Origin: a virus
IMG/VR virus record: IMGVR_UViG_3300020578_000006
Span: 62,001-126,000 of that record
Direction: 5' to 3' (one strand)
Length of the DNA: 64,000 nt
The number at the start of each line of letters is the position of its first letter. Position 1 is the stretch's first letter. The notes under the pieces were generated by a model. It was not told where the DNA came from. It saw only the letters and a program-made list of their open reading frames with translations, and did no database searches. Positions 3,658 through 62,403 of this stretch are shown here, one piece after another. The translations under genes were made by a program, and so were the position numbers.

Positions 3658-4134
3658 ATGGATAAACTGTATTTAACTTGGAATGAAGTTACAGATCAAT
3701 TAAAAATTATTCACAATCAAACAAAGCATCTAGATAGTAATTCCGCAGTCATAGGCCTGTCTAGAGGCGGTTTAGTACCAGCGGTTATAATATCGCACCT
3801 CAAAAACATTAGCTGCTTTTATAGCTGTGGCATTAAGAGCTACTCTGAGCACAACAAGTCAACGGAAATAATGTTTCAATACCCAGATAAACAGGAATTA
3901 AGAAATAAGGAGATTGTGTATGTTGTTGATGATATTTGTGATACAGGGGGTACCTTAAAATTTATTGAAAATTATTTGTTGCCTATTAAGATGGTTTCAA
4001 TTACACTAATATATAGGCAGAATGAATTGTATAAGCCAAATTATTTTGGTAAAGAACTCTTTGACAAGAGATGGGTTGTTTTTCCTTGGGAAGAGACTAA
4101 ATATTACACTACTAAAGAACATAGTTTTTCTTAG
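3658..4134 (+). CDS. Purine-type phosphoribosyltransferase (Gpt-like)
   Basis: A 158-residue type I phosphoribosyltransferase, the usual size for xanthine-guanine PRTases. GLSRGGLVPA (residues 33-42) matches the first conserved loop. VVDDICDTGGT (89-99) is the PRPP-binding loop with two acidic residues. KRWVVFPWE (137-145) resembles the base-stacking/hood region of Gpt-type enzymes. Known members convert guanine or xanthine plus PRPP to GMP or XMP. The base specificity cannot be proved from sequence. In this genome it may salvage guanine released when DNA guanine is exchanged for 7-deazaguanine (see the 16.7-21.0 kb cassette), which is an inference. Confidence 0.85.
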   Translation: MDKLYLTWNEVTDQLKIIHNQTKHLDSNSAVIGLSRGGLVPAVIISHLKNISCFYSCGIKSYSEHNKSTEIMFQYPDKQELRNKEIVYVVDDICDTGGTLKFIENYLLPIKMVSITLIYRQNELYKPNYFGKELFDKRWVVFPWEETKYYTTKEHSFS

Positions 4135-8551: not shown

Positions 8552-10810
8552 ATGAATAATCAGATCTTTGTAAAAAAACGTAATGGAAATGCAGAAAAAT
8601 TTGATATTGAAAAAATTCACAGAGTAATCAGATGGTCAATTGAAGGGTTAGACGGGGTAAGCCTATCGGATATAGAAATAAACGCCAAGCTCAATATGGT
8701 GCAAAATGTTACCACTAAAGAAATTCATCAAAGTCTTATTGAAGCAGCTTCTAACCTTATTTCAGTAGAATCACCTAACTATCAGTATGTTGCTTCTAGA
8801 CTATTAAACTATCAGTTACGAAAAGACGTTTGGGGAGGCAAACACGCTCCAAGATTGTTAGATATGATTTATGGTGGAATTAGAAGAAAGATTTATGACC
8901 CTTCTATTATAGAAAAATATACAGAAGACGAAATTAATAAAATGGGTGAGTTTATTGATCATGATAGAGATTTTATTTTTACATATGCAGGTATTAAGCA
9001 GCTGTGTGACAAATATTTAATTAAAAATAGAATATCAGGTACTATTTTTGAAACTCCTCAATTTGCTTATATTCTAATTGCTGCATATGCTTTTGTTAAT
9101 TATAATCCTGAGGATAGGTTAATATACATTAAAAGATTTTACGATGCTATTTCTAAGCATAAAATTAATCTACCAACACCAATTATGGCCGGGGTTAGAA
9201 CAGTATCAAGAGGGTACGCGAGCTGCTGCTTAATTGGTGTAGATGATACAAAAGAATCTATTACTGCTTCCGGTACTGCAGTATCTTTAGCCACGGCTAG
9301 TAGGTGTGGTATTGGTATAGATATTTCTCGTGTCCGGGCAATGGGCACCCCGGTTAATGGTGGTTCAGTTGTGCATACAGGGGTTATCCCCTTTTTAAAG
9401 ATATTCGAAGCATCGGTTAAAGCGTGGCAGCAAAATTCTATAAGAGGAGGTTCCGCTACTGTTAATATACAGTGGTGGCATTACGAGATTGAGGATGTAG
9501 TTGTATTAAAGAATAATGCTGGTACTGATGATAACAGAGTCAGAAAATTAGACTATACTGTCGGAATGTCAAAACTATTTTATGACAGGGTTATAAAAAA
9601 TGAAAACGTAACATTATTTTCACCCAACGAAGTTCCTCACCTTTGGGGAGCATGGGGAACACCTGGTTTTGATAAAATATATGCAGAATGTGAGCAAGAT
9701 AAGAAAATTAAATTTAAAAAGAAGATTTCTGCAAGAAAGCTATTTTCACTTATAATTAAAGAAAGAGTAGAAACCGGTAGAATATATATTTTAAACGTCG
9801 ATACGGCAAACGAACACGTTGCATGGCTAGATCAAGTCACCATGTCAAATCTGTGCACAGAAATTATTCACCCTTATATTCCTTTAAAAGATTTTCATGA
9901 TCAGGAAGCGGAAATAGGAATGTGTATTTTATCAGCAGTGAATATGTTAGAAATTAAGAATTGGAATGAATTAGAAAAGGTGTGTGAGTTAATAGTTAGA
10001 TTTTTAGATGAAATTATAGATGTACAAGATTATTTTAATAAAGCTGCAGAAAATTTTGCTAAGCACCGACGTAGCCTAGGCATAGGTATTACAAACTTGG
10101 CTGCGTTTTTAGCTAAAAACGACGTAAAATACACTTCTAGTAAAGCTCTTCCAATAATTGATGAATGGATGGAGCATTTTCAATACTATCTTTTAAAAGC
10201 TAGTTTGACTCTTGCAAAAGAAAAAGGTAAATGTGAAAAATTTGATCGAACAAAGTATTCTAAGGGCATACTACCTATAGATACTTTTAAGAAAAACACT
10301 ACAGAGATTGTTAAGAGAAAACTATCACTAGATTGGGGTACATTAAGAGAGGAAATTAAAAAACACGGCTTAAGACACAGCACAGTTTCAGCCATAATGC
10401 CTTGTGAATCTAGTTCCGTTATTCAAAATTCTACTAATGGGGTAGAGCCTATTCGCTCACTCATTACCTACAAAATGTCTAAGATGGGTAAATTGCCTGT
10501 ACTGGTTCCAGGCATAGGGAAATATGATCAAAATTATGAGTTAGCTTTTAGTCTACCAGATAATACAGGTCTTATTAATCTTAACGCCGTAATGCAAAAA
10601 TATATAGACATGGCTATTTCTACTAACATATACTATAATTACAGTCATTATGATGGCCACACTTTACCAGATGCTAAAGTAATGAAAGAAATTATGTATG
10701 CATATAGCATGGGTTTGATTAGTTTGTATTATAACAATACAGATGATGGTGATAAGGAGCAGTTAATTACAAAAGAAGACTCTTGTTCTAGTGGGGCATG
10801 TAAACTATGA
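8552..10810 (+). CDS. nrdA: Ribonucleoside-diphosphate reductase, class Ia alpha subunit
   Basis: This 752-residue protein reduces ribonucleoside diphosphates to deoxynucleotides together with NrdB and aligns along its length with E. coli NrdA (761 aa). Residues 4-90 are an ATP-cone (VKKRNGNAEKFDIEKIHRVI), the allosteric activity site. Active-site residues are present: C225 in YASCC, N433, C435 and E437 in MSNLCTEI, and C458 in GMCILSAVN. The C-terminal relay cysteines are C745 and C750 in SCSSGACKL, which exchange with thioredoxin or glutaredoxin. The gene overlaps nrdB by 4 bp, as expected for coupled subunits. It is complete, with no intron or split, unlike some T4-like phages. It supplies dNTPs for replication of the phage genome. 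Confidence 0.97.
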   Translation: MNNQIFVKKRNGNAEKFDIEKIHRVIRWSIEGLDGVSLSDIEINAKLNMVQNVTTKEIHQSLIEAASNLISVESPNYQYVASRLLNYQLRKDVWGGKHAPRLLDMIYGGIRRKIYDPSIIEKYTEDEINKMGEFIDHDRDFIFTYAGIKQLCDKYLIKNRISGTIFETPQFAYILIAAYAFVNYNPEDRLIYIKRFYDAISKHKINLPTPIMAGVRTVSRGYASCCLIGVDDTKESITASGTAVSLATASRCGIGIDISRVRAMGTPVNGGSVVHTGVIPFLKIFEASVKAWQQNSIRGGSATVNIQWWHYEIEDVVVLKNNAGTDDNRVRKLDYTVGMSKLFYDRVIKNENVTLFSPNEVPHLWGAWGTPGFDKIYAECEQDKKIKFKKKISARKLFSLIIKERVETGRIYILNVDTANEHVAWLDQVTMSNLCTEIIHPYIPLKDFHDQEAEIGMCILSAVNMLEIKNWNELEKVCELIVRFLDEIIDVQDYFNKAAENFAKHRRSLGIGITNLAAFLAKNDVKYTSSKALPIIDEWMEHFQYYLLKASLTLAKEKGKCEKFDRTKYSKGILPIDTFKKNTTEIVKRKLSLDWGTLREEIKKHGLRHSTVSAIMPCESSSVIQNSTNGVEPIRSLITYKMSKMGKLPVLVPGIGKYDQNYELAFSLPDNTGLINLNAVMQKYIDMAISTNIYYNYSHYDGHTLPDAKVMKEIMYAYSMGLISLYYNNTDDGDKEQLITKEDSCSSGACKL

Positions 10811-11871
10811 AATCTGTATTAAATTTAAAAAACATCGATCACACTAAGCAGCCTTTATTTTTTGGGGAAGACTTAAATTTACAACGTTATGATAGATTTA
10901 AGTATCCGGTATTTTTTGAGTTATTCAAAAGACAAGAAGAATTTTTTTGGTGGCCTCATGAAATTTCCCTGCAAAAAGATAGAGCTGATTATAAAGATCT
11001 AACACCGGAAGAAAGATTTGTGTTTGATACAAATTTAAAGTTTCAAACATTAGGTGATAGTATGCTATCTAGATCTATACACTCGTTAAAAGACTATGTT
11101 TCTAGCCCGGAACTAGAAATATGTATGAACACCTGGCAAAGGTTTGAAGGGATCCATAGCTACAGCTATAGCTATCTTCTCAACAACGTACATCCAGATG
11201 CATCTAAATTTTTTGATAGTATAATGGATGATAAAGAAATAGTAAGTAGAGCAGAACTAATTCGTAAAAATTACGATAAAATCTTAGGTGGGGAAGATAA
11301 AAAAGATGTTAAGGAAAAGATTTTTGACTGCATTCTAGCAGTCAATGTAATGGAAGGACTAGTGTTCTATGTTAGTTTTGCCTGTTCATTTTACTTTGGG
11401 TACAGAGGTAAAATGGAAGGAAATGCTAAAATTATTAAGTTTATTCAAAGAGATGAAGCTCAACACTTTGCTATAACTCAAAATCTTATTAAAATTCTTC
11501 GAGATGAAGACAAAGAAGGGTTTACATCAACCGTAAAAAAGAATGAAGATAAGATTTATGCTATATATGAACAAGCAACAAAAAATGAAATCGAATGGGC
11601 ACAATATCTTTTTAGTAAAAGTTCATTATTAGGTTTAAATGCTGAGGTCTTAGGGTCATATGCAAAATGGCTTTGTGATAATAGACTACGGTCTCTCGGT
11701 TACAAAAAAGTCTTTAATCAAAAAGAAAATCCAATTGCAGGTTGGTTGGACAGTTATCTAGACAGCAGTAAAGTCCAAGTAGCCCCACAGGAGGCAGAAA
11801 TAGGTGCATACAAAATTGCGGCGCGCGATACAACGATTACAGAAGACGTTTTCGACGACATTAAGTTGTAA
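10807..11871 (+). CDS. nrdB: Ribonucleoside-diphosphate reductase, class Ia beta subunit
   Basis: A 354-residue radical-generating subunit. The diiron ligands are all present: D84 (TLGDSM), E114 and H117 (RFEGIHS), E183 (NVMEGLVF), E217 and H220 (RDEAQH). The radical tyrosine is Y121 in HSYSYSY, matching Y122 of E. coli NrdB, so this is a classical Tyr-radical enzyme. The C-terminal APQEAEIG segment and acidic tail bind NrdA. E. coli NrdB is 376 residues; the loop after the helix near residue 160 is shorter here. It is co-translated with nrdA (4-bp overlap). A TATAAATA element follows directly after the stop, starting a separate late unit. Confidence 0.97.
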   Translation: MKSVLNLKNIDHTKQPLFFGEDLNLQRYDRFKYPVFFELFKRQEEFFWWPHEISLQKDRADYKDLTPEERFVFDTNLKFQTLGDSMLSRSIHSLKDYVSSPELEICMNTWQRFEGIHSYSYSYLLNNVHPDASKFFDSIMDDKEIVSRAELIRKNYDKILGGEDKKDVKEKIFDCILAVNVMEGLVFYVSFACSFYFGYRGKMEGNAKIIKFIQRDEAQHFAITQNLIKILRDEDKEGFTSTVKKNEDKIYAIYEQATKNEIEWAQYLFSKSSLLGLNAEVLGSYAKWLCDNRLRSLGYKKVFNQKENPIAGWLDSYLDSSKVQVAPQEAEIGAYKIAARDTTITEDVFDDIKL

Positions 11872-16732: not shown

Positions 16733-17539
16733 ATGAAAGTTTCTCATGAGACCCCTATTTCACTGTTAGATTATTCTAGAGATTACAATGATTTTGACTA
16801 TTGTTTAGTACATTTATTAGATAAACACCCTGATTACAAGGAGTTTTATAAGACAGCAAGACCTATTTACAATCGAGAAGTACTTCTAGACAATTCTATA
16901 TTTGAATTAGGCAAAGCATTTGACGCAGAGGCTTTCTATAAAGCAGCTTTAGAACTAGAACCTAATATGTTCATAGTTCCAGATGAACTGGAAGATATGA
17001 CCGGTACGATACAAAGCTTTAAAAGCTTTACAAACAAAATGCAAGATTTAAAAAACACCTTTCTAACCAAGGCCATTGGTGCTGTGCAGGGTAAAAACTG
17101 GCAAGAGTTAACCGAGTGTTATAAGTTTATATCTGATAACGCAGATATGGTTGCAATAAGTTTTGATTTTAGTTATTACCAGGTAACAGGTCGCGGTTGG
17201 CACCATTTAGAGCGTTGGTGTTCGGGTCGTCAGCGCTTTATTCAAGATTTAATAAATAATGGTCTATGGAGGTGGGATAAGCCTCATCATTTGTTGGGAT
17301 GCTCACTAGCAAAAGAATTTCGTTACTATGTCGATAGAGGTATTCACAATATTGTGTCTTGTGATACTAGCAATCCAATTGTTGCCGCTATTCATGAAAT
17401 AAAGTATGATGCGGATTATGGGCTAGACACTAAACCTTCTACTAAGCTTGCAGATCTGATTAGTCATGAATTTACACCTGAACAATTAGAGATGGTTAAG
17501 TACAATACTACAATGTTTAAGAAAATTATTCGTAGATGA
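16733..17539 (+). CDS. TGT-superfamily transglycosylase, DpdA-like (DNA 7-deazaguanine insertion)
   Basis: The 268-residue protein has the order of active-site motifs of tRNA-guanine transglycosylases in a shortened TIM-barrel. LLDNSIFELG (51-60) holds D53, which fits the general-base aspartate. VPDELEDMTGT follows at 82-92. AIGAVQGKNW (114-123) has the Q-G pair. KPHHLLGCS (183-191) matches the LMG/HLLG loop. IVSCDTSNP (207-215) holds D211, which fits the nucleophile. Phage relatives (DpdA) exchange guanine in DNA for a 7-deazaguanine base and lack the tRNA-specific zinc domain; no zinc Cys set is seen here. The neighbours support this: QueF 2.5 kb downstream in the same run and a formyltransferase overlapping by 4 bp. 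An alternative is a tRNA-acting TGT relative. The subfamily is not determined. Confidence 0.7.
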   Translation: MKVSHETPISLLDYSRDYNDFDYCLVHLLDKHPDYKEFYKTARPIYNREVLLDNSIFELGKAFDAEAFYKAALELEPNMFIVPDELEDMTGTIQSFKSFTNKMQDLKNTFLTKAIGAVQGKNWQELTECYKFISDNADMVAISFDFSYYQVTGRGWHHLERWCSGRQRFIQDLINNGLWRWDKPHHLLGCSLAKEFRYYVDRGIHNIVSCDTSNPIVAAIHEIKYDADYGLDTKPSTKLADLISHEFTPEQLEMVKYNTTMFKKIIRR

Positions 17540-18105
17540 GACCCTGGGTAGCATTTTTCTCTCAAACAGGAACAGAGATTCATAATTTAAGCAATGAAAT
17601 AGGGGTGTATCCTGATGCTATCATTACAAATAATCCTACTATATCTAAGATTAATTCTGCTTTAAGATATGTAACAGAGTTTAGAACCAATAAACTAAAT
17701 CGAGAAATATTGCACACACTTACTTCTAAGCCAACAGTAGAAGAATATGAAAATATTTTAAGTAAATTTAAGAACCCTATACTAACTTTACACGGTTATT
17801 TAAGAATTATACCAAAACAAATTTGTGAAAAGTATGAAACTTACAATCTACACCCGGGATTAATAGACAAATATCCAGAGTTGAAAGGGTTTAACCCTCA
17901 AGAGCGTGCCTACAGGGATAACTACAAGCTAGCCGGTTGTGTTATTCACAAAGTAACACCAGAAGTTGATGAAGGAGAGATTTTAATGAGCCAAGGCATT
18001 AGTATAGAGGGGTTAACTCTTAATGAGGTCTATGAAAAATTACACGATACGGCTTTTGATCTGTGGAAAAGTTTTTTTTCCGCTTATAATGTTTTAAAGG
18101 GCTAA
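17536..18105 (+). CDS. Formyltransferase-fold protein, candidate dPreQ1 formyltransferase (DpdN-like)
   Basis: A 189-residue protein with the formyltransferase (PurN/Fmt) core: LTLHGYLRIIP (84-93), YNLHPGLIDKYP with N104 and H106, and GCVIHKVTPEVDEGEIL with D145. These match the catalytic Asn-His-Asp triad that transfers a formyl group from 10-formyl-tetrahydrofolate. The length is close to that of PurN. The usual reading would be phosphoribosylglycinamide formyltransferase, but no other purine-synthesis gene is present, and it overlaps the TGT-like gene by 4 bp with QueF nearby. Published work on phage 7-deazaguanines predicts a formyltransferase (DpdN) acting on preQ1 in DNA, and this context fits that role. 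Fold confident, substrate inferred. Confidence 0.75.
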   Translation: MRPWVAFFSQTGTEIHNLSNEIGVYPDAIITNNPTISKINSALRYVTEFRTNKLNREILHTLTSKPTVEEYENILSKFKNPILTLHGYLRIIPKQICEKYETYNLHPGLIDKYPELKGFNPQERAYRDNYKLAGCVIHKVTPEVDEGEILMSQGISIEGLTLNEVYEKLHDTAFDLWKSFFSAYNVLKG

Positions 18106-18106
18106 T

Positions 18107-19072
18107 ATGGACGTTTCTTTACATTATAAAAATGTTTTTTTAAAGCCTAATTTCAATTCTGTTAAGTCGAGAAAAGAAATTGACACACATGTACAGTTTT
18201 GTGATCGGGTTTTCAGGTTACCTGTTATACCCGCTAACATGAAATGTTGTGTAGACTATGAAACTTGTCAGATGTTAGATAAAAACAACTACTTTTATAT
18301 AATGCATAGATTTGATATAGACATTTTAAACTTTGTTAAGTATGCAAATTTGCAGAACTTTCATAATGTTTCAATTAGTATCGGTATACAGGATAAAGAT
18401 AGGCACATTATTAACGAATTATCACATATTTCTCAGCTTGGTAGGTTAGATTTCATAACTATTGACGTTGCCCACGGTCATCACTCTAAGGTTTGTGGTC
18501 AAATTAAGTTTATTAAAGATAGACTCCCAGCAGTTAGAGTAATTGCGGGTAATGTAGCATCGTATAAGGGGGTAGAATATTTAAGAGACTCTGGAGCAGA
18601 CGCCGTAAAGGTAGGTATTGGTGGTGGTTATGCGTGTACTACTAAGGATAAAACAGGATTTACCCATCCTATGTTTAGTTGTATAATGGAATGTGCCCAA
18701 GACAACAATTTACCTGTTATCGCCGATGGTGGTATACGCAATAACGGTGATATTTCTAAAGCTATTGTTGCAGGAGCTACAATGGTAATGTGTGGTTCTA
18801 TATTTGCTGCATGTTCAGATAGCCCAGCCCCAATAGTTAAGGATTCCTCCGGGCATAGATACAAACAATACTACGGCTCAGCAAGTATTCACAATAAAAT
18901 TGAAAAAAGAAATATTGAAGGTACAATGAAGCTTATGGAAGCTGATACAACAACCTATTTAGAGAAGCTAGAGGAAATTGAACAAGATTTACAGAGTGCA
19001 ATAAGCTACGCAGGTGGTTGCAATCTTAAAGCTCTTAACCTACATAATGTATCTTACGGGGTAAGAATGTAA
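18107..19072 (+). CDS. guaC: GMP reductase (IMPDH/GMPR family)
   Basis: The 321-residue protein matches bacterial GuaC along its length. IPANMKCCVD lies at 41-50, ITIDVAHGHH near 118-126, and VIAGNVASY at 145-153. The catalytic loop KVGIGGGYACTTKDKTG carries C177, and IADGGIRNNGDI and GATMVMCGS follow. GMP reductase members have CTT followed by K-x-K-T-G at this loop, and there is no CBS domain insert, so GMPR is favoured over IMP dehydrogenase. It converts GMP with NADPH to IMP and ammonia. One base separates it from the formyltransferase stop and it shares one base with the next start, so it belongs to the same operon. In a phage that exchanges DNA guanine it may recycle or limit guanine nucleotides, which is inference. 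Confidence 0.88.
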   Translation: MDVSLHYKNVFLKPNFNSVKSRKEIDTHVQFCDRVFRLPVIPANMKCCVDYETCQMLDKNNYFYIMHRFDIDILNFVKYANLQNFHNVSISIGIQDKDRHIINELSHISQLGRLDFITIDVAHGHHSKVCGQIKFIKDRLPAVRVIAGNVASYKGVEYLRDSGADAVKVGIGGGYACTTKDKTGFTHPMFSCIMECAQDNNLPVIADGGIRNNGDISKAIVAGATMVMCGSIFAACSDSPAPIVKDSSGHRYKQYYGSASIHNKIEKRNIEGTMKLMEADTTTYLEKLEEIEQDLQSAISYAGGCNLKALNLHNVSYGVRM

Positions 19073-19416
19073 TGGGAGAAGATTATATTAAAATTGTAGA
19101 GTCCACGTATCCAGAGACGTGTGAAGAGTTTAAAAAAATACAGAAAGAGCAATATGAAGTTTTTTGTAAGAAGCAGTTTGATTATGGGCCCCACAATATT
19201 AGTCTTGGCTCAGATCTTCACAAAAAAGAAGACATAATAGCGTCTATATCAGCAATTGTAGTAAGGTTAAACGACAAAATTCAACGGCTTATTAATATGG
19301 TTTTAAGAAAAAAAACATTTGAAGCGGCAAATGAGCCAATTTTTGATGCTTTTAGCGATACCTCTGTATATTGTATTATTGCAGAAATAGTTAAAAGAAA
19401 AAAGTGGTGTAAGTAG
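19072..19416 (+). CDS. DUF1599/Nmad1-like nucleotide-modification-associated protein
   Basis: A 114-residue helical protein with the pattern of DUF1599 (nucleotide modification associated domain 1). KKQFDYGPHNI covers residues 33-43, VVRLNDKIQRL 63-73, and EPIFDAFSDTSVYCII 88-103. The conserved K-x-x-D-Y-G-x-x-N, R-x-x-D-K-x-x-R and D-x-x-x-D-x-x-x-Y elements are all present. In this family those residues suggest a nucleotide-binding or hydrolysing all-alpha fold found near base-hypermodification genes in phages. The start shares one base with the guaC stop. It supports the reading of 16.7-21.0 kb as a base-modification or nucleotide-supply cassette. The exact reaction is unknown. Confidence 0.65.
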   Translation: MGEDYIKIVESTYPETCEEFKKIQKEQYEVFCKKQFDYGPHNISLGSDLHKKEDIIASISAIVVRLNDKIQRLINMVLRKKTFEAANEPIFDAFSDTSVYCIIAEIVKRKKWCK

Positions 19417-19439
19417 TAGTTGTAGTTATAATAGAGTAA

Positions 19440-20024
19440 GTGAATATTACTTTTACTGGGCCGCAGTGTTCGGGTAAGACTACTTTGCTCAAGCAAATGA
19501 AGCAGACTAGAGGTATTATGGATCAGTTTTTTTATATTGAAGAAGTTACTAGATTAGTAAAGAGGGAGTTTAATGTTAGGATAAATGAAGAAGGTGCAAA
19601 CGATATAACTCAATTGTTAATTTTAAATAAGGAACTAGAGAATTTATTTAAATACGATTATGAACTTTGGCCGGGATGTAAAGGTAATGTACATGATAGA
19701 TGCCTACTAGATGGTTTGGTATTTACAGAATATTTTTATGATAAAAAACTTGTAAGTCAGCAAATCTGGTCACAAGCGTTAAACTATTGGAATCGTTTTT
19801 ATCATAAATACGATATTATATTTTATCCCGATCCCCATGAAATAAAATTAGTCGATGACGGTGAGAGAAGTGTTGACGTAGATTTTAGAAATAATATTAT
19901 AGACAAGTATGAGAATTACTATCTAGATCAATTTCAATGGAAAGATAAAGTTGTAAGACTGAAAGGAACAGTAGAAGAGAGAATAGGGATGATTAAAAGT
20001 ATTATAGATTTTTATACAAAGTAG
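19440..20024 (+). CDS. P-loop nucleotide kinase / AAA_28-like ATPase
   Basis: A 194-residue P-loop protein starting at GTG. The Walker A motif is GPQCSGKTT (7-15). NVHDRCLLDGLVF near residues 83-95 is the DR-containing segment of deoxynucleotide or NadR-type kinases, and DIIFYPDP, then DDGERSVDVDFRNNIIDKYENYY, follow, as in the AAA_28 group. Such enzymes phosphorylate nucleotides, nucleosides or nicotinamide riboside. Lying between the Nmad1-like and queF genes, it may phosphorylate a nucleotide for the modification pathway, or act generally in dNTP supply. Substrate unknown. Confidence 0.75.
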   Translation: MNITFTGPQCSGKTTLLKQMKQTRGIMDQFFYIEEVTRLVKREFNVRINEEGANDITQLLILNKELENLFKYDYELWPGCKGNVHDRCLLDGLVFTEYFYDKKLVSQQIWSQALNYWNRFYHKYDIIFYPDPHEIKLVDDGERSVDVDFRNNIIDKYENYYLDQFQWKDKVVRLKGTVEERIGMIKSIIDFYTK

Positions 20025-20039
20025 TATAAAATATATTCA

Positions 20040-20957
20040 ATGAGCAATACCATTTTAGATAATAGCAATATTTCAAAGCATCTCGGTAAAATAACCGGTT
20101 ATAAATCAACATATGACCCGACGTTGTTGGTAAGAGAGCCTAGAATTAACAATAGAAAGCATTTAGGAATTACAGATGAGGATGTTCCGTTTGGTGGTTA
20201 TGATATTTGGAATGCTTATGAAGTTTCCTGCTTAACAAAAGAGGGTATGCCTATTGCTGCTATAGCTAAGATTGTTTACCCGGCTAAAAACAAATACATC
20301 GTAGAGTCAAAGTCGATAAAGCTGTATATGAATTCGTTTAATATGCAAAAGTTTGAAGGAAATATTATTTCTATTTTAATGCAACTTCAAGATACGATTG
20401 CATCTGATCTTTCTAAGCTTTTAGAAACTGACGTCAAGGTATATGTAAGATCTACCAAATCAGTAGATGATGGTTTGTATTATCCACCGGTCTTTTCAAA
20501 TAAAGACTACCCGACGTTAGAGAATTTTATTGATGTAACTACTATTAAAGCGCCTTTTTACACAGAAAATCCCGATATTTTGAGTGCTGAAAAAATTAAT
20601 GAATCTAAAGTACAAAGATTCCACTCCGCATTATTAAAAAGTAATTGCAGAGTTACTTCTCAACCTGATTGGGGAGATGTTTACATTCACTACAAGGGTA
20701 AATATGAAATTAATCCAACTTCTCTTTTACAATATATTGTTTCTTTTAGAGATGAATGTCATTTTCACGAAGAGATTTGTGAAACTATTTATATGAGAAT
20801 TTTTCGAAAGTTTTTTCCCGAAGAGCTAGTTGTTAGCTGTTTATATGTAAGACGTGGTGGTATTGATATCAATCCAACAAGGTCGAGTAATCATAGTCTT
20901 TTAGACAAATCGTTAATTGACGAGTTTAAATATTTTACAAAAACGGTCAGACAGTAA
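20040..20957 (+). CDS. queF: NADPH-dependent 7-cyano-7-deazaguanine (preQ0) reductase
   Basis: A 305-residue protein that aligns with E. coli-type QueF, the long form with two T-fold halves. TGYKSTYDPTLL lies at 19-30 and FGGYDIWNAYEVS at 51-63. The QueF motif ESKSIKLYMNSFN starts at E89. The active-site cysteine C203 is in LLKSNCRVTSQPDWG, with D210 in the same segment. CHFHEEICE holds H243 and RRGGIDINP ends the second half. It reduces the nitrile of preQ0 to the aminomethyl of preQ1 with two NADPH. Cellular QueF feeds queuosine in tRNA; here the TGT-like neighbour suggests preQ1 destined for phage DNA. The earlier genes for preQ0 (folE, queD, queE, queC) are not in the window, so preQ0 must come from elsewhere in the genome or from the host. 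Confidence 0.95.
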   Translation: MSNTILDNSNISKHLGKITGYKSTYDPTLLVREPRINNRKHLGITDEDVPFGGYDIWNAYEVSCLTKEGMPIAAIAKIVYPAKNKYIVESKSIKLYMNSFNMQKFEGNIISILMQLQDTIASDLSKLLETDVKVYVRSTKSVDDGLYYPPVFSNKDYPTLENFIDVTTIKAPFYTENPDILSAEKINESKVQRFHSALLKSNCRVTSQPDWGDVYIHYKGKYEINPTSLLQYIVSFRDECHFHEEICETIYMRIFRKFFPEELVVSCLYVRRGGIDINPTRSSNHSLLDKSLIDEFKYFTKTVRQ

Positions 20958-24290: not shown

Positions 24291-27200
24291 GTGGCTGACC
24301 GTAATGTATTAATATCTCCGGGTGAAGGTTATATATTTTTCGATAGGAGCAATACTGGCTCTTCGACAAAATATGCAGGGGTTTCTGCCGATCTTAGCGT
24401 ACAAATCCAATATAATGATCTTGGTGGGTTAGAGTTTAGTACACCTGCTACTAACAATTCAACAGTTTCTATAAGTGGTGGAAATATCGTAGCTAATAGA
24501 AATATTACCGGGTTTACCATTTTTGAGAATCACTTAAATACAAATAGTGATGACTGGGCATCAGTTTATTCTTCAGTTCAAACAAATTCATCTGATTGGA
24601 ATGGAGGCGGAAGCCTTTATACAGTAGTTACAGAAAATAGTGCAAACTGGAACAGCGTTTATACTTCTGTAAGTGAAACTAGTGCTGACTGGGATTCAAC
24701 TTACACATCGGTCTCCGAAACATCGGCTGACTGGGATAGTACATATACATCGGTTTCAGAGACAAGCGCTGATTGGGATTCAACGTATACATCGGTCTCC
24801 GAAACATCAGCTGACTGGGATAGTACATATACATCGGTATCTGAAACATCGGCTGATTGGGATAGTACTTACACTTCAGTTTCAGAGACGAGTGCTGACT
24901 GGGATTCAACTTATACCTCCGTTAGTGAAACATCAGCTGACTGGGACAGTACATATACTTCTGTTTCAGAAACATCGGCTGACTGGGATTCAACTTATAC
25001 CTCCGTTAGTGAAACCAGTGCTGATTGGGATATTACATATACTTCTGTAAGCGAAACATCAGCTGACTGGGATAGTACGTATACTTCTGTTTCAGAAACA
25101 TCGGCTGACTGGGATAGTACGTATACTTCTGTTTCAGAAACATCTGCTGATTGGGATAGTACCTATACATCGGTATCTGAAACATCAGCTGATTGGGATT
25201 CGACTTATACTTCCGTAAGCTTAAATAGCGCCGATTGGGATAGTACATATACTTCTGTTTCAGAAACATCAGCTGATTGGGATTCGACTTATACTTCCGT
25301 AAGCTTAAATAGCGCCGATTGGGATAGTACATATACTTCTGTTTCAGAAACATCTGCTGATTGGGATAGTACATATAGTTCAGTTAGCCTAGTAAGTGCC
25401 GATTGGGACAGTTCAATTTACGACATTTATGGTACAACACACCAAATAACCGTTGTAACAGCAGGTACAAATAACAGAGATAATAGCGTTACTTTAAGTT
25501 TCCCGACAAGTGTATTTTTCCCAGGTAGTGTTAGTATAGCAGGTAACCTAACAATCTCTGGATCTGCCGCACAAATAGATGTAGATCACTTAGTAGTTAA
25601 AGATAATATAATTTATTTTGCAGAAGATAACCCAGCAAATGTTTTAGATATCGGATGGGTTGGCGCATTTACAGAAATTGGCGATGATGCTGGGTACCAA
25701 CATACAGGTTTGATTAGAAGAGCAGGCCAAGGCCGCCCTGGTACATGGACATTATTCTCTGGGCTTACAACAGAACCTGCATCTGCTGCAAATATTAATT
25801 GGGATGATTATTATTTTACAATAGACACTCTAAGAGCTAACCTATCTGGTACAGTGTTAGTACCTGGTGGCGGGTCTTCATTTGACTGGGATAGTGTATA
25901 TGCTAATGTTCAAGCAAATTCAGCTGGTTGGAGCGGAGGAGGAAGCCTTTATACAGTAGTTACAGAAAATAGTGCAAACTGGAACAGCGTTTATACATCA
26001 GTAAGTGAGACTAGCGCTGACTGGGATTCAACTTACACATCGGTCTCCGAAACATCGGCTGACTGGGATAGTACCTATACATCGGTTTCACAAACATCTG
26101 CTGATTGGGATAGTACCTATACTTCTGTAAGTGAGACTTCAGCTGATTGGGATAGTACCTATACATCAGTAAGTGAAACATCAGCTGACTGGGATTCAAC
26201 TTATACTTCCGTTAGCGAGACCAGCGCCGATTGGGATAGCACATACACATCTGTAAGCGAAACATCGGCTGATTGGGATTCAACCTACACTTCTGTTAGT
26301 GAAACCAGTGCTGATTGGGATAGCACTTACACCTCAGTAAGTGAGACCAGTGCTGACTGGGATTCAACCTATACATCAGTAAGTGAGACCAGCGCCGATT
26401 GGGATTCGACTTATACTTCTGTAAGCTTAAATAGCGCCGATTGGGACAGTACATACACATCAGTAAGTGAGACCAGCGCCGATTGGGATTCGACTTATAC
26501 TTCTGTAAGCTTAAATAGCGCCGATTGGGACAGTACATACACATCAGTAAGTGAGACCAGCGCCGATTGGGATTCGACTTATACTTCTGTAAGCTTAAAT
26601 AGCGCCGATTGGGACAGTACATACACATCAGTAAGCGAAACATCAGCTGACTGGGATTCAACCTATACATCAGTTTCACAAACATCTGCCGATTGGGATA
26701 GTGTCTATACATCGATGTCACTTAATAGTAGTTATTGGCTCGATATATCTGAAGCTAGTACAGAATTCTTAAAGGTATCTGGTGGTACTATTATAGAGGT
26801 TGGTGGTGAAGGTGGCTCGTTAGTCATAACAAATGATTTGACTGTCGATCCAACTAATCATGTATTGTTTGTTGATAAGTCACTTCAAAGAGTAGGTATA
26901 CTAAATTCAACACCTGATCGCGCTCTACACGTTAATGGAGATATCGAAGGATCTATTGGTTACTTTACACATATTGCAGCCGGCACAAAGTCATTCTATA
27001 TCAAACACCCTATTGATAGCAACAAACATCTACAATACGGATCATTGGAGTCTCCTTATCACGGTATAAGACTGACTGGTGAAGCAGAAATTACTGGCTC
27101 TACTGCAAAAATCGTTCTACCTTCTTATGTCTATGCTTTAGTACATGATAGTAATCTCAATGTTCAATTGACGAACTTCAAACACAAAAAACAACTCTGG

Positions 27201-27350
27201 GTGGACGATATCGTAATAGATACTAATACAAAAGAAAGTTACTTTGTAGTTAAGACCTCTAAAGATCTGTTTAGCAATAAAGCTTATAAGTTCTTCTGGT
27301 CCTTCACTGCCATTCGAAAGGATATTCCACCCCTAGTAGTAGAGGTGTAA
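24291..27350 (+). CDS. Tail fibre protein with two arrays of a 14-residue repeat
   Basis: A 1019-residue protein starting at GTG. An N-terminal cap (about 1-120) resembles that of the fibre at 27981. Then come 18 exact-length units of YTSVSETSADWDST (about 124-375). A non-repeat domain follows (about 376-545) with VKDNIIYFAEDNPANVLDIGWVG and HTGLIRRAG, a module seen in phage fibres. A second array has 17 units plus a degenerate 18th (about 568-820). The C-terminal domain is shared with the previous gene (KSFYIKHP, LQYGSLESPYHGIRLTG, SFTAIRKDIPP). Tyr and Trp recur every 14 residues, suggesting a regular shaft of trimeric coiled-coil or beta-fold. Array length may tune fibre length. The reverse strand of the arrays is open in places by repetition, not by coding. 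Confidence 0.8.
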   Translation: MADRNVLISPGEGYIFFDRSNTGSSTKYAGVSADLSVQIQYNDLGGLEFSTPATNNSTVSISGGNIVANRNITGFTIFENHLNTNSDDWASVYSSVQTNSSDWNGGGSLYTVVTENSANWNSVYTSVSETSADWDSTYTSVSETSADWDSTYTSVSETSADWDSTYTSVSETSADWDSTYTSVSETSADWDSTYTSVSETSADWDSTYTSVSETSADWDSTYTSVSETSADWDSTYTSVSETSADWDITYTSVSETSADWDSTYTSVSETSADWDSTYTSVSETSADWDSTYTSVSETSADWDSTYTSVSLNSADWDSTYTSVSETSADWDSTYTSVSLNSADWDSTYTSVSETSADWDSTYSSVSLVSADWDSSIYDIYGTTHQITVVTAGTNNRDNSVTLSFPTSVFFPGSVSIAGNLTISGSAAQIDVDHLVVKDNIIYFAEDNPANVLDIGWVGAFTEIGDDAGYQHTGLIRRAGQGRPGTWTLFSGLTTEPASAANINWDDYYFTIDTLRANLSGTVLVPGGGSSFDWDSVYANVQANSAGWSGGGSLYTVVTENSANWNSVYTSVSETSADWDSTYTSVSETSADWDSTYTSVSQTSADWDSTYTSVSETSADWDSTYTSVSETSADWDSTYTSVSETSADWDSTYTSVSETSADWDSTYTSVSETSADWDSTYTSVSETSADWDSTYTSVSETSADWDSTYTSVSLNSADWDSTYTSVSETSADWDSTYTSVSLNSADWDSTYTSVSETSADWDSTYTSVSLNSADWDSTYTSVSETSADWDSTYTSVSQTSADWDSVYTSMSLNSSYWLDISEASTEFLKVSGGTIIEVGGEGGSLVITNDLTVDPTNHVLFVDKSLQRVGILNSTPDRALHVNGDIEGSIGYFTHIAAGTKSFYIKHPIDSNKHLQYGSLESPYHGIRLTGEAEITGSTAKIVLPSYVYALVHDSNLNVQLTNFKHKKQLWVDDIVIDTNTKESYFVVKTSKDLFSNKAYKFFWSFTAIRKDIPPLVVEV
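24660..25415 (+). repeat. Tandem array of 18 x 42 bp (14-residue repeat), array 1
   Basis: Eighteen 42-bp units encode Y-T-S-V-S-E/L-T/N-S-A-D-W-D-S-T. Most copies differ only by synonymous changes, for example in the S-E-T-S codons, so the protein repeat is conserved while the DNA has drifted. Units 14-17 alternate SETS and SLNS types. Confidence 0.9.
25992..26705 (+). repeat. Tandem array of 17 x 42 bp, array 2, with recent 84-bp duplications
   Basis: Seventeen 42-bp units of the same 14-residue repeat, followed by one degenerate unit. Positions 26373-26456, 26457-26540 and 26541-26624 are three identical or nearly identical 84-bp blocks, each a SETS unit plus a SLNS unit, showing recent expansion by dimers. 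Earlier units are diverged at synonymous sites. Confidence 0.9.
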
Positions 27351-60531: not shown

Positions 60532-62403
60532 TTAATACTCCCTTAGAGTGCTGCTCTGGGTTTCTGGTGTTACTAGTTCTATTTGTGATATAAAATTATC
60601 CACATTGTATAGGTAGGGTAGTTTAAAATATGGTAAGGGTAAACTTTGTGTAATAATTTGAATATCTTCTTTACCACCGCTATAAACGGGATTAAAGACC
60701 AAAAAGCTCAAGCCATTTCTCACTGTTTCTACGCCATCAATAATACGTTTGCATGCTATAGATACTACACCATCGATTTCTAAAATTTTTGTTGTAAGAG
60801 AATCTAAATTTACAAGCTGTCCTAATACGGTGTTACCTGGGGCAAAATATTCTGATATTAAATTATTAACTTGTCTCTTTATTTCGGCCTCACTAAATCT
60901 AGAAGATGGAGATCTTGAGACTACTAAGACAGAATCCTTGATGATGTCAGGTGTAAGTAGGGAGTTGTTTATTTCCGCGTTAGATGCAACCCCTATACCA
61001 AATGCTGTATAAACAGGGTCCATCATAACAATTTCAGATGTTGCCATTTTGGTTTCCTGTAAACCGCGGGCAATATAATCTTTTAAACCTATAGATAGAA
61101 AATTGTTAAACGTTTGAGCGCTATTTATTTTTTTAATTTTAGGGACAACATACACGTAGATATTATTAAAATCACAGCTGTCCGAGAATGTCACTTGATT
61201 TAACAGTACTCTACTATCGTTAGAAGGTGCTTTAAGACCTATATTGTAGTAATATCTCATGTGCTCTGCAATATAATCCCAATTGTTAACAACCTTAACG
61301 TTATCAATTAAATTGCTGAAGTTGCTCTTTATAAACGTTTCGAAATCGGATGTTGTTATTAATCTGTATTGCGTTTTAAAGGTATTAGGTGCGTTTTGCC
61401 TGATATCTTCAGCTGTTTCTATAGGTGAATAATCTGTAGAGGCATCGGTATTAGAAAATATTAATGAGGCTGCTTGATCATTAGATGTGTATGTCTGATT
61501 AATACTCTTAACGTTGTTAAATATAGACTGAAATAGAGGAGTATTATAAAGAAATAAGGTGTTACCGTCTAGCATACCTGGGCCTACTTCCCCACCATTA
61601 CCAGCTGGCCTTAAATAATAAACCGCAACAACATTGCTTGGCATTAGCTGTTTACCGCTTACATTGTTACCGAATTTTAATTCATAACGCTGCTTTTCAT
61701 TTAATCTGCATTCAAATGCTTTGCTTGATGGTCCTTCTAGATATAAACTATCCACTCTTTTCCACTCTACCCATCTTCCTGTTTCATCAAAAACATAAAC
61801 AAATATGTTTCGATGGTCAATTAAAATGTTTTCATCATTTTCACCTATAAGCGCTAGAGAAAACGATTCAAAGGGCGAACCGGTTGCAGTATAGAGAGGG
61901 TATTCTAGAAACTGACCTTGATATAATAATGTAGATTGGGCAAGCTGGGTTAACTCTTCAACACCTTCAAAAGATTTGATAAAGGTAGTATCATTTGCAA
62001 AGCTGTAATATACTCCGTTTACCGTAAAATAAGAATATCTTGGTATAGTATAAATTCCTACTGGAAGCGAAGACGGGGCCGATGCTTTAAAGCTTAATAT
62101 ACTAGACTGTGCACCTACCGGGTTATAGTTTAATGCCTTAACAATCTTGTTCATATTTTCATATAACTGAGATTGAGAGAACTGACTCTCACTACCTGTC
62201 TTGTTCAAGTAAAATAATAAAACGTGATAACTGTAGGCTATAATATCTAGCAAACTATTAAAATTACTTCCTTCAAAAATTTGATCAGTAAACACCCCGC
62301 CTTGAGAAAGACGGGATTGCATTAATGTTTTTAAAGATGTAGCATCGAATGCTGCATACGCATTAAACGGCAAGTTAAACTGATTGCTAGTCGTATTGTT
62401 CAT
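60532..62403 (-). CDS. 6: Baseplate wedge protein (gp6/J-like)
   Basis: A 623-residue protein (T4 gp6 is 660 aa). The N-terminus (AAFDATSLKTLMQSRLSQ, FNSLLDIIAYSYHVLLFYLNKTGSES) is the gp6-type helix region. The middle has baseplate-J-like strands, and ENMNKIVKALNYNPVGAQSSILSF is a further gp6-like element. The stretch APNTFKTQYRLITTSDFETFIKSNF resembles the gp6/J core that clamps wedges. It shares a base with the gp25-like gene stop, as in T4-like operons where 25 and 6 are adjacent. It forms the inner ring of the baseplate. Confidence 0.85.
   Translation of the reverse strand: MNNTTSNQFNLPFNAYAAFDATSLKTLMQSRLSQGGVFTDQIFEGSNFNSLLDIIAYSYHVLLFYLNKTGSESQFSQSQLYENMNKIVKALNYNPVGAQSSILSFKASAPSSLPVGIYTIPRYSYFTVNGVYYSFANDTTFIKSFEGVEELTQLAQSTLLYQGQFLEYPLYTATGSPFESFSLALIGENDENILIDHRNIFVYVFDETGRWVEWKRVDSLYLEGPSSKAFECRLNEKQRYELKFGNNVSGKQLMPSNVVAVYYLRPAGNGGEVGPGMLDGNTLFLYNTPLFQSIFNNVKSINQTYTSNDQAASLIFSNTDASTDYSPIETAEDIRQNAPNTFKTQYRLITTSDFETFIKSNFSNLIDNVKVVNNWDYIAEHMRYYYNIGLKAPSNDSRVLLNQVTFSDSCDFNNIYVYVVPKIKKINSAQTFNNFLSIGLKDYIARGLQETKMATSEIVMMDPVYTAFGIGVASNAEINNSLLTPDIIKDSVLVVSRSPSSRFSEAEIKRQVNNLISEYFAPGNTVLGQLVNLDSLTTKILEIDGVVSIACKRIIDGVETVRNGLSFLVFNPVYSGGKEDIQIITQSLPLPYFKLPYLYNVDNFISQIELVTPETQSSTLREY

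Follow-up and report, generated by a model that had tools for sequence, protein, structure and literature searches.

In the Campylobacter phages CP220 and CPt10, 100% of the deoxyguanosine (dG) is replaced by 2'-deoxy-7-amido-7-deazaguanosine (dADG) (PMC8306585; also PMC10273834), and Hutinet et al. 2019 counted the Campylobacter phages as lacking DpdA, the transglycosylase that inserts 7-deazaguanines into phage DNA. In Vibrio phage nt-1 the modification is partial and affects ~0.1% of G (PMC6884629). The QueF-bearing phages Dp-1, HVTV-1 and 6E351A carry the deoxynucleoside (dPreQ1) of 7-aminomethyl-7-deazaguanine (preQ1), and Flavobacterium phage vB_FspM_immuto (MW353176; immuto below) has an annotated QueF and a DpdA annotated as DNA-modifying. 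Here we analyzed a 64,000-nucleotide stretch of viral DNA (the window), positions 62,001 to 126,000 of IMG/VR virus record IMGVR_UViG_3300020578_000006, which is a 229.7 kb phage contig (229,717 bases). An operon at 16733-20957 of the window (78733-82957 of the record) is probably a cassette for modifying guanine in phage DNA, of the firehammervirus/immuto type, yielding dPreQ1 or N-formyl-dPreQ1 for most or all dG. As judged from its genes, its product is most likely preQ1 or N-formyl-preQ1 in place of most or all guanines, and the altered guanine probably hides the phage DNA from bacterial defences. The operon contains the following genes, with lengths in amino acids (aa):

16733..17539, + strand, DpdA-like protein with the fold of tRNA-guanine transglycosylase (TGT), 268 aa, phrog_19058
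17536..18105, + strand, DpdN-like formyltransferase, 189 aa, PF00551
18107..19072, + strand, GuaC, GMP reductase-like, 321 aa, PF00478
19072..19416, + strand, DUF1599/Nmad1-like small protein, 114 aa, phrog_1485
19440..20024, + strand, P-loop kinase, 194 aa, AAA_28, phrog_2107
20040..20957, + strand, QueF, E. coli-type reductase from 7-cyano-7-deazaguanine (preQ0) to preQ1, 305 aa, PF14819 and PF14489

The six open reading frames (ORFs) share one strand and are separated by junctions of -4, +1, -1, +23 and +15 nt. An earlier note, made from the letters of this DNA, had described a six-gene rightward run here, and all six ORFs lie where it had put them or a few bases off. Megablast of the operon region against phages returned no match, and a promoter scan gave no signal above that of shuffles.

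The identity of the first protein as a member of the TGT superfamily, which the earlier note had proposed, rests on a fold search; sequence-profile searches gave no significant assignment. Nothing significant was found in Pfam, NCBIfam or a profile search of PDB sequences, the main match was phrog_19058, a PHROG family without assigned function, and hhalign recognized E. coli TGT only weakly (50% probability, P 1.6e-4). By contrast, when the AlphaFold (AF2) model (pLDDT 92.9) was compared with the PDB, all 50 of the 50 matches listed were TGT, the best with E 5e-9 and a TM score of ~0.7, which supports the proposal. The residues that had been singled out from the sequence, D53, Q119-G120, H186-G189 (HLLG) and D211, are correct and are invariant in 33 diverse sequences, the others of which are 40-82% identical to the window protein. 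Strand positions suggest that D53 and D211 pair with D102 and D280 of TGT. The protein is shorter (268 aa) than E. coli TGT (375 aa) and nt-1 DpdA2 (464 aa). In a tblastn search it matched 14 Campylobacter phage records (46% identity) and immuto (42%). Its close homology to the CP220 protein (46% identity over 92%, E 1e-50) is of the kind that marks the DpdA3 subfamily. Cui et al. are said to have named in 2023 both DpdA3, associated with complete replacement, and DpdN, a predicted dPreQ1 formyltransferase.

At the other end of the operon, QueF matched PF14819 (QueF_N, 4.7e-34) and PF14489 (4.7e-21), both above cut-off, and has C203, D210 and an ESKS motif at 89, as read earlier; its score against TIGR03138 (266 bits) is slightly under the cut-off of 293. 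A search of the rest of the genome for folE, queD, queE and queC, which the earlier note had called for, found all four in the same record, with FolE, QueD and QueE grouped at 174-178.5 kb. Together with QueF in the operon, these genes complete the route from GTP to preQ1. Their record positions, and that of a neighbor of QueC, are:

173992-174648, FolE, from a family search
176341-176994, QueD, from a family search
177775-178521, QueE, from the ORF listing with PHROG and NCBIfam (phrog_2076, 7e-45)
154928-155671, QueC, from a family search
154238-154927, - strand, class II glutamine amidotransferase, beside QueC

The second protein of the operon belongs to the formyltransferase family, as had been anticipated, with a match to Formyl_trans_N (PF00551, 4.6e-15) and N104, H106 and D145 present. 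PurN was its best NCBIfam match (2e-13) and is also the name given to some of its cyanophage relatives; against the PurN equivalog TIGR00639, however, it scored 50.2 bits where the cut-off is 150.1. It is 48% identical to the neighbor of dpdA in immuto, and its nearest relatives adjoin dpdA. On this basis we propose that it is a DpdN-like enzyme that would N-formylate preQ1 or dPreQ1.

We then compared the locus with its relatives. Three IMG/VR scans, CP220 and its relatives and two annotated phages provided 183 loci (125 non-redundant ones at 95% DpdA identity); the scans kept best matches only, and distant members may differ. Among the 101 loci with at least 4.5 kb of sequence downstream of DpdA, 99 have the kinase, 98 QueF and 90 the formyltransferase within 4.8 kb. 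Locus L102 was the only one without a kinase inside 5.5 kb, and its kinase lies at 5.9 kb behind inserted genes, bringing the kinase to 101 of 101. One of the inserted genes (9395-10318) belongs by Pfam to the ornithine cyclodeaminase/mu-crystallin family; L113 has what we presume from its similar position and size to be a counterpart (9900-10820), and a HIT-like ORF is inserted in both loci. A reverse search from the kinase gave 80 loci, 71 of them with this DpdA, which is 71 of the 71 having enough upstream sequence; the other nine are uninformative, because the stored sequence ends <1.8 kb from the start of the kinase, too close for dpdA to be seen. As the cassette is syntenic in ~100 non-redundant loci, its gene order is not a matter of chance.

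The kinase itself matched AAA_28 (5.9e-15) and phrog_2107. Its model is closest to deoxynucleoside kinase, the ribosylnicotinamide kinase domain of NadR and thymidylate kinase, so that nucleosides or nucleotides are its probable substrates. Because it is constant across ADG- and preQ1-type phages, its role may be tied to DpdA itself. A search of 50,697 phage records with the kinase returned Campylobacter phages, immuto and, weakly, four Streptomyces records, and nothing else. The match in Streptomyces phage LukeCage was rejected as a cassette, being weak (E 2e-6) and with no dpdA annotated nearby. A second AAA_28-like kinase paralogue lies behind queE (record 179664-180359, + strand), and CP220 has two kinase copies too.

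The position of the formyltransferase behaves as an exchangeable slot. In six contigs (L096-L098, L101, L105 and L106) formyltransferase and DUF1599 form a single ORF, and in four loci the formyltransferase is replaced by GNAT-domain proteins, a swap that fits acylation of an amine. Two of these, L182 (8816-9769) and L183 (6123-7076), are dpd operons that have no formyltransferase; their kinase carries a fused GNAT acetyltransferase, a fusion that predicts an acetylated preQ1 base. In the other two, L165 (6918-8812) and L158 (5528-7422), a HAD and GNAT protein, accompanied by a glyoxalase-family protein, takes the place of the formyltransferase. One clade has DpdA, kinase and QueF only, and unacylated dPreQ1 is predicted there. 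A MazG/PRA-PH, DUF1599 or dGTP-diphosphohydrolase gene lies near 86 of the 90 formyltransferase-positive loci and in 3 of the 11 formyltransferase-negative ones (L182, L183 and L165), with none in the other eight; these counts come from related genomes and do not represent independent events. In L023 (10807-12387) and L025 (4008-5582), a tryptophan-halogenase-family flavoprotein (PF04820, E 1e-75) lies between dpdA and the formyltransferase. We make no claim of a halogenated base, since the gene lacks WxWxIP and occurs in these two contigs only.

The remaining genes may serve purine metabolism. GuaC scored 330.9 bits against PRK05458, just under the cut-off of 344, matched PF00478 (IMPDH/GMPR, 5e-53) and carries the active-site cysteine motif GIGGGYACTT at 170; we propose that it turns over GMP. 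The label DUF1599/Nmad1 used in the earlier note for the small protein holds only as a resemblance: the protein matched phrog_1485 (2e-12), but PF07659 gave no match to it at E up to 1 and reached 14.4 bits (E 0.05) in a relative, where the cut-off is 25 bits. It is possibly a MazG-fold nucleotide pyrophosphohydrolase. The accessory gene of interest lies further upstream in the window:

3658..4134, + strand, xanthine/guanine phosphoribosyltransferase-like gene (PRT), PRK09177 9.9e-19

Among the 87 loci with both flanks, a PRT lies just upstream of dpdA in 38, as it does in immuto, and GuaC is present in 24. We propose that the PRT serves guanine salvage. By our estimate of ~81,000 guanines per genome, 100 genomes would release ~13 mM guanine in 1 fL, which makes PRT and GuaC sensible as nearby salvage genes. 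At the operon position itself, GuaC occurs in 18 of the 101 loci and is clade-specific, and DUF1599 occurs in 47. The earlier note had suggested that a link between this pathway and guaC, Nmad1 and the kinase may be new. Across the loci the three genes differ: the kinase is near-obligate, DUF1599 is common and in some contigs forms one protein with the formyltransferase, and guaC is clade-specific. GuaC-like and DUF1599-like genes also lie within ~4 kb of each other in Microcystis phage Mel-JY01 (L115) and the crAss-like cr108_1 (L116), which have no match to this DpdA. The pair is therefore not specific to deazaguanine and is possibly linked to another purine process. A long ORF elsewhere in the window (24291-27350) contains a TSVSETSADWDSTY-type repeat in many copies and probably encodes a tail or fibre protein.

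In the mechanism that we favor, FolE, QueD, QueE and QueC would convert GTP to preQ0, QueF would reduce preQ0 to preQ1, and the TGT-fold DpdA would swap guanine for the 7-deazaguanine. The formyltransferase would formylate the amine of the aminomethyl group, either ahead of insertion or following it. The guanine set free and the pool of purine nucleotides would be dealt with by the kinase, PRT, GuaC and the DUF1599-like protein. DNA modified in this way would be protected from guanine-recognizing nucleases. Several points weigh against this mechanism. The base of the window phage is a prediction from its genes, and DNA is the presumed substrate of this DpdA subfamily. DpdA also lacks the TGT zinc site (CxCx2Cx22-28H), having no cysteine after D211; we did not take this site as defining for phage DpdA, because DpdA2 of nt-1 is likewise without a residue, His196, that is conserved in other DpdA. 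Finally, the amidotransferase lies at most ~3 kb from QueC in seven relatives of the window clade and one further contig, and is absent from the immuto clade. This arrangement resembles the Gat-QueC pair linked to 2'-deoxyarchaeosine (dG+) in phage 9g, making another product possible; the amidotransferase might supply QueC with ammonia or be a sign of a G+-like product.

The constancy of the kinase also fits a different route, in which DpdA would swap guanine for preQ1 in free dGMP supplied by a MazG-type hydrolase, a formyl or GNAT-type acyltransferase would decorate the product, the kinase would phosphorylate the modified dNMP and the polymerase would incorporate the modified dNTP. The dZ genomes of S-2L-like phages are a precedent for this last step. 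Such a route would account for a kinase that accompanies DpdA more steadily than any other gene, irrespective of the final base, and has the fold of a deoxynucleoside/nucleotide kinase, for the hydrolase-type genes near nearly all formyltransferase-positive loci, for the formyltransferase-DUF1599 and kinase-GNAT fusions, for a compact DpdA shorter than E. coli TGT and nt-1 DpdA2, and for 100% replacement in CP220. We nevertheless consider it unlikely, as TGT-family enzymes work on polynucleotides and as infected cells reportedly contained no phosphates of dADG in the study of Crippen et al. from 2019. In published work DpdA is regarded as a DNA-level enzyme (PMC12783734). If correct, the route would stand beside dZ as the second case of purine replacement at the nucleotide level, and acyl-preQ1 bases so far unobserved would occur in some relatives. 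The chances are about even that the kinase is instead a salvage enzyme only, which returns purine nucleotides to the pool, among them those formed from freed guanine through PRT and GMP, with GuaC and DUF1599 adjusting pools and DpdA acting on finished DNA. This role is compatible with the favored cassette and forms a part of it; the frequencies of PRT and GuaC and the kinship of the kinase to nucleoside/nucleotide kinases fit it, but it does not account for a kinase that exceeds PRT in constancy, is retained in all 101 loci and can be fused to an acetyltransferase.

Two further explanations would detach some of the genes from DNA. That the formyltransferase is a PurN-like enzyme of purine biosynthesis, unrelated to the base, is very improbable: its best NCBIfam match and the naming of cyanophage relatives agree with PurN, yet its score is far below the cut-off, and it keeps its place beside dpdA in 90 of the 101 loci and is swapped for GNAT proteins in the four described above. 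Even less credible is that the phage makes queuosine precursors for host tRNA, with the TGT-like protein acting on tRNA. FolE, QueD, QueE, QueC and QueF are common to queuosine synthesis, and phages with these genes and no recognized DpdA exist; however, queuosine synthesis has no formyltransferase step, and homologues of the protein occur in phages with complete dG replacement and in immuto.

The modification cassette can thus be set against the known systems. Like the window phage, the firehammerviruses CP220 and CPt10 have a homologue of DpdA (annotated as hypothetical), followed directly by a homologue of the kinase, and QueC in the record; unlike it, they have no QueF or formyltransferase beside dpdA, and their reported base is dADG. 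DpdA2 of nt-1 and DpdA of phage 9g are likewise TGT-superfamily transglycosylases accompanied by a Q-pathway, DpdA2 being the longer protein (464 versus 268 aa). Complete base replacement in a large phage raises the question of how every guanine is exchanged, and a kinase that accompanies this DpdA in every locus having enough sequence is a testable missing component; the exchangeable acyl slot predicts new DNA bases. What deserves follow-up is the obligate kinase together with the fusions and the swaps in the acyl slot. The core cassette was known before, and its novelty had been overstated, as the public and annotated genome of immuto has the same core operon, ordered dpdA, formyltransferase, P-loop kinase, queF, with DpdA, formyltransferase and QueF 42-48% and the kinase 34% identical to those of the window. 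The immuto genome also holds folE, queD, queE and queC. It differs in that a MazG-type gene upstream stands in place of GuaC and DUF1599, and in that folE, queD and queE lie beside dpdA, whereas in the window phage they are ~90 kb away.

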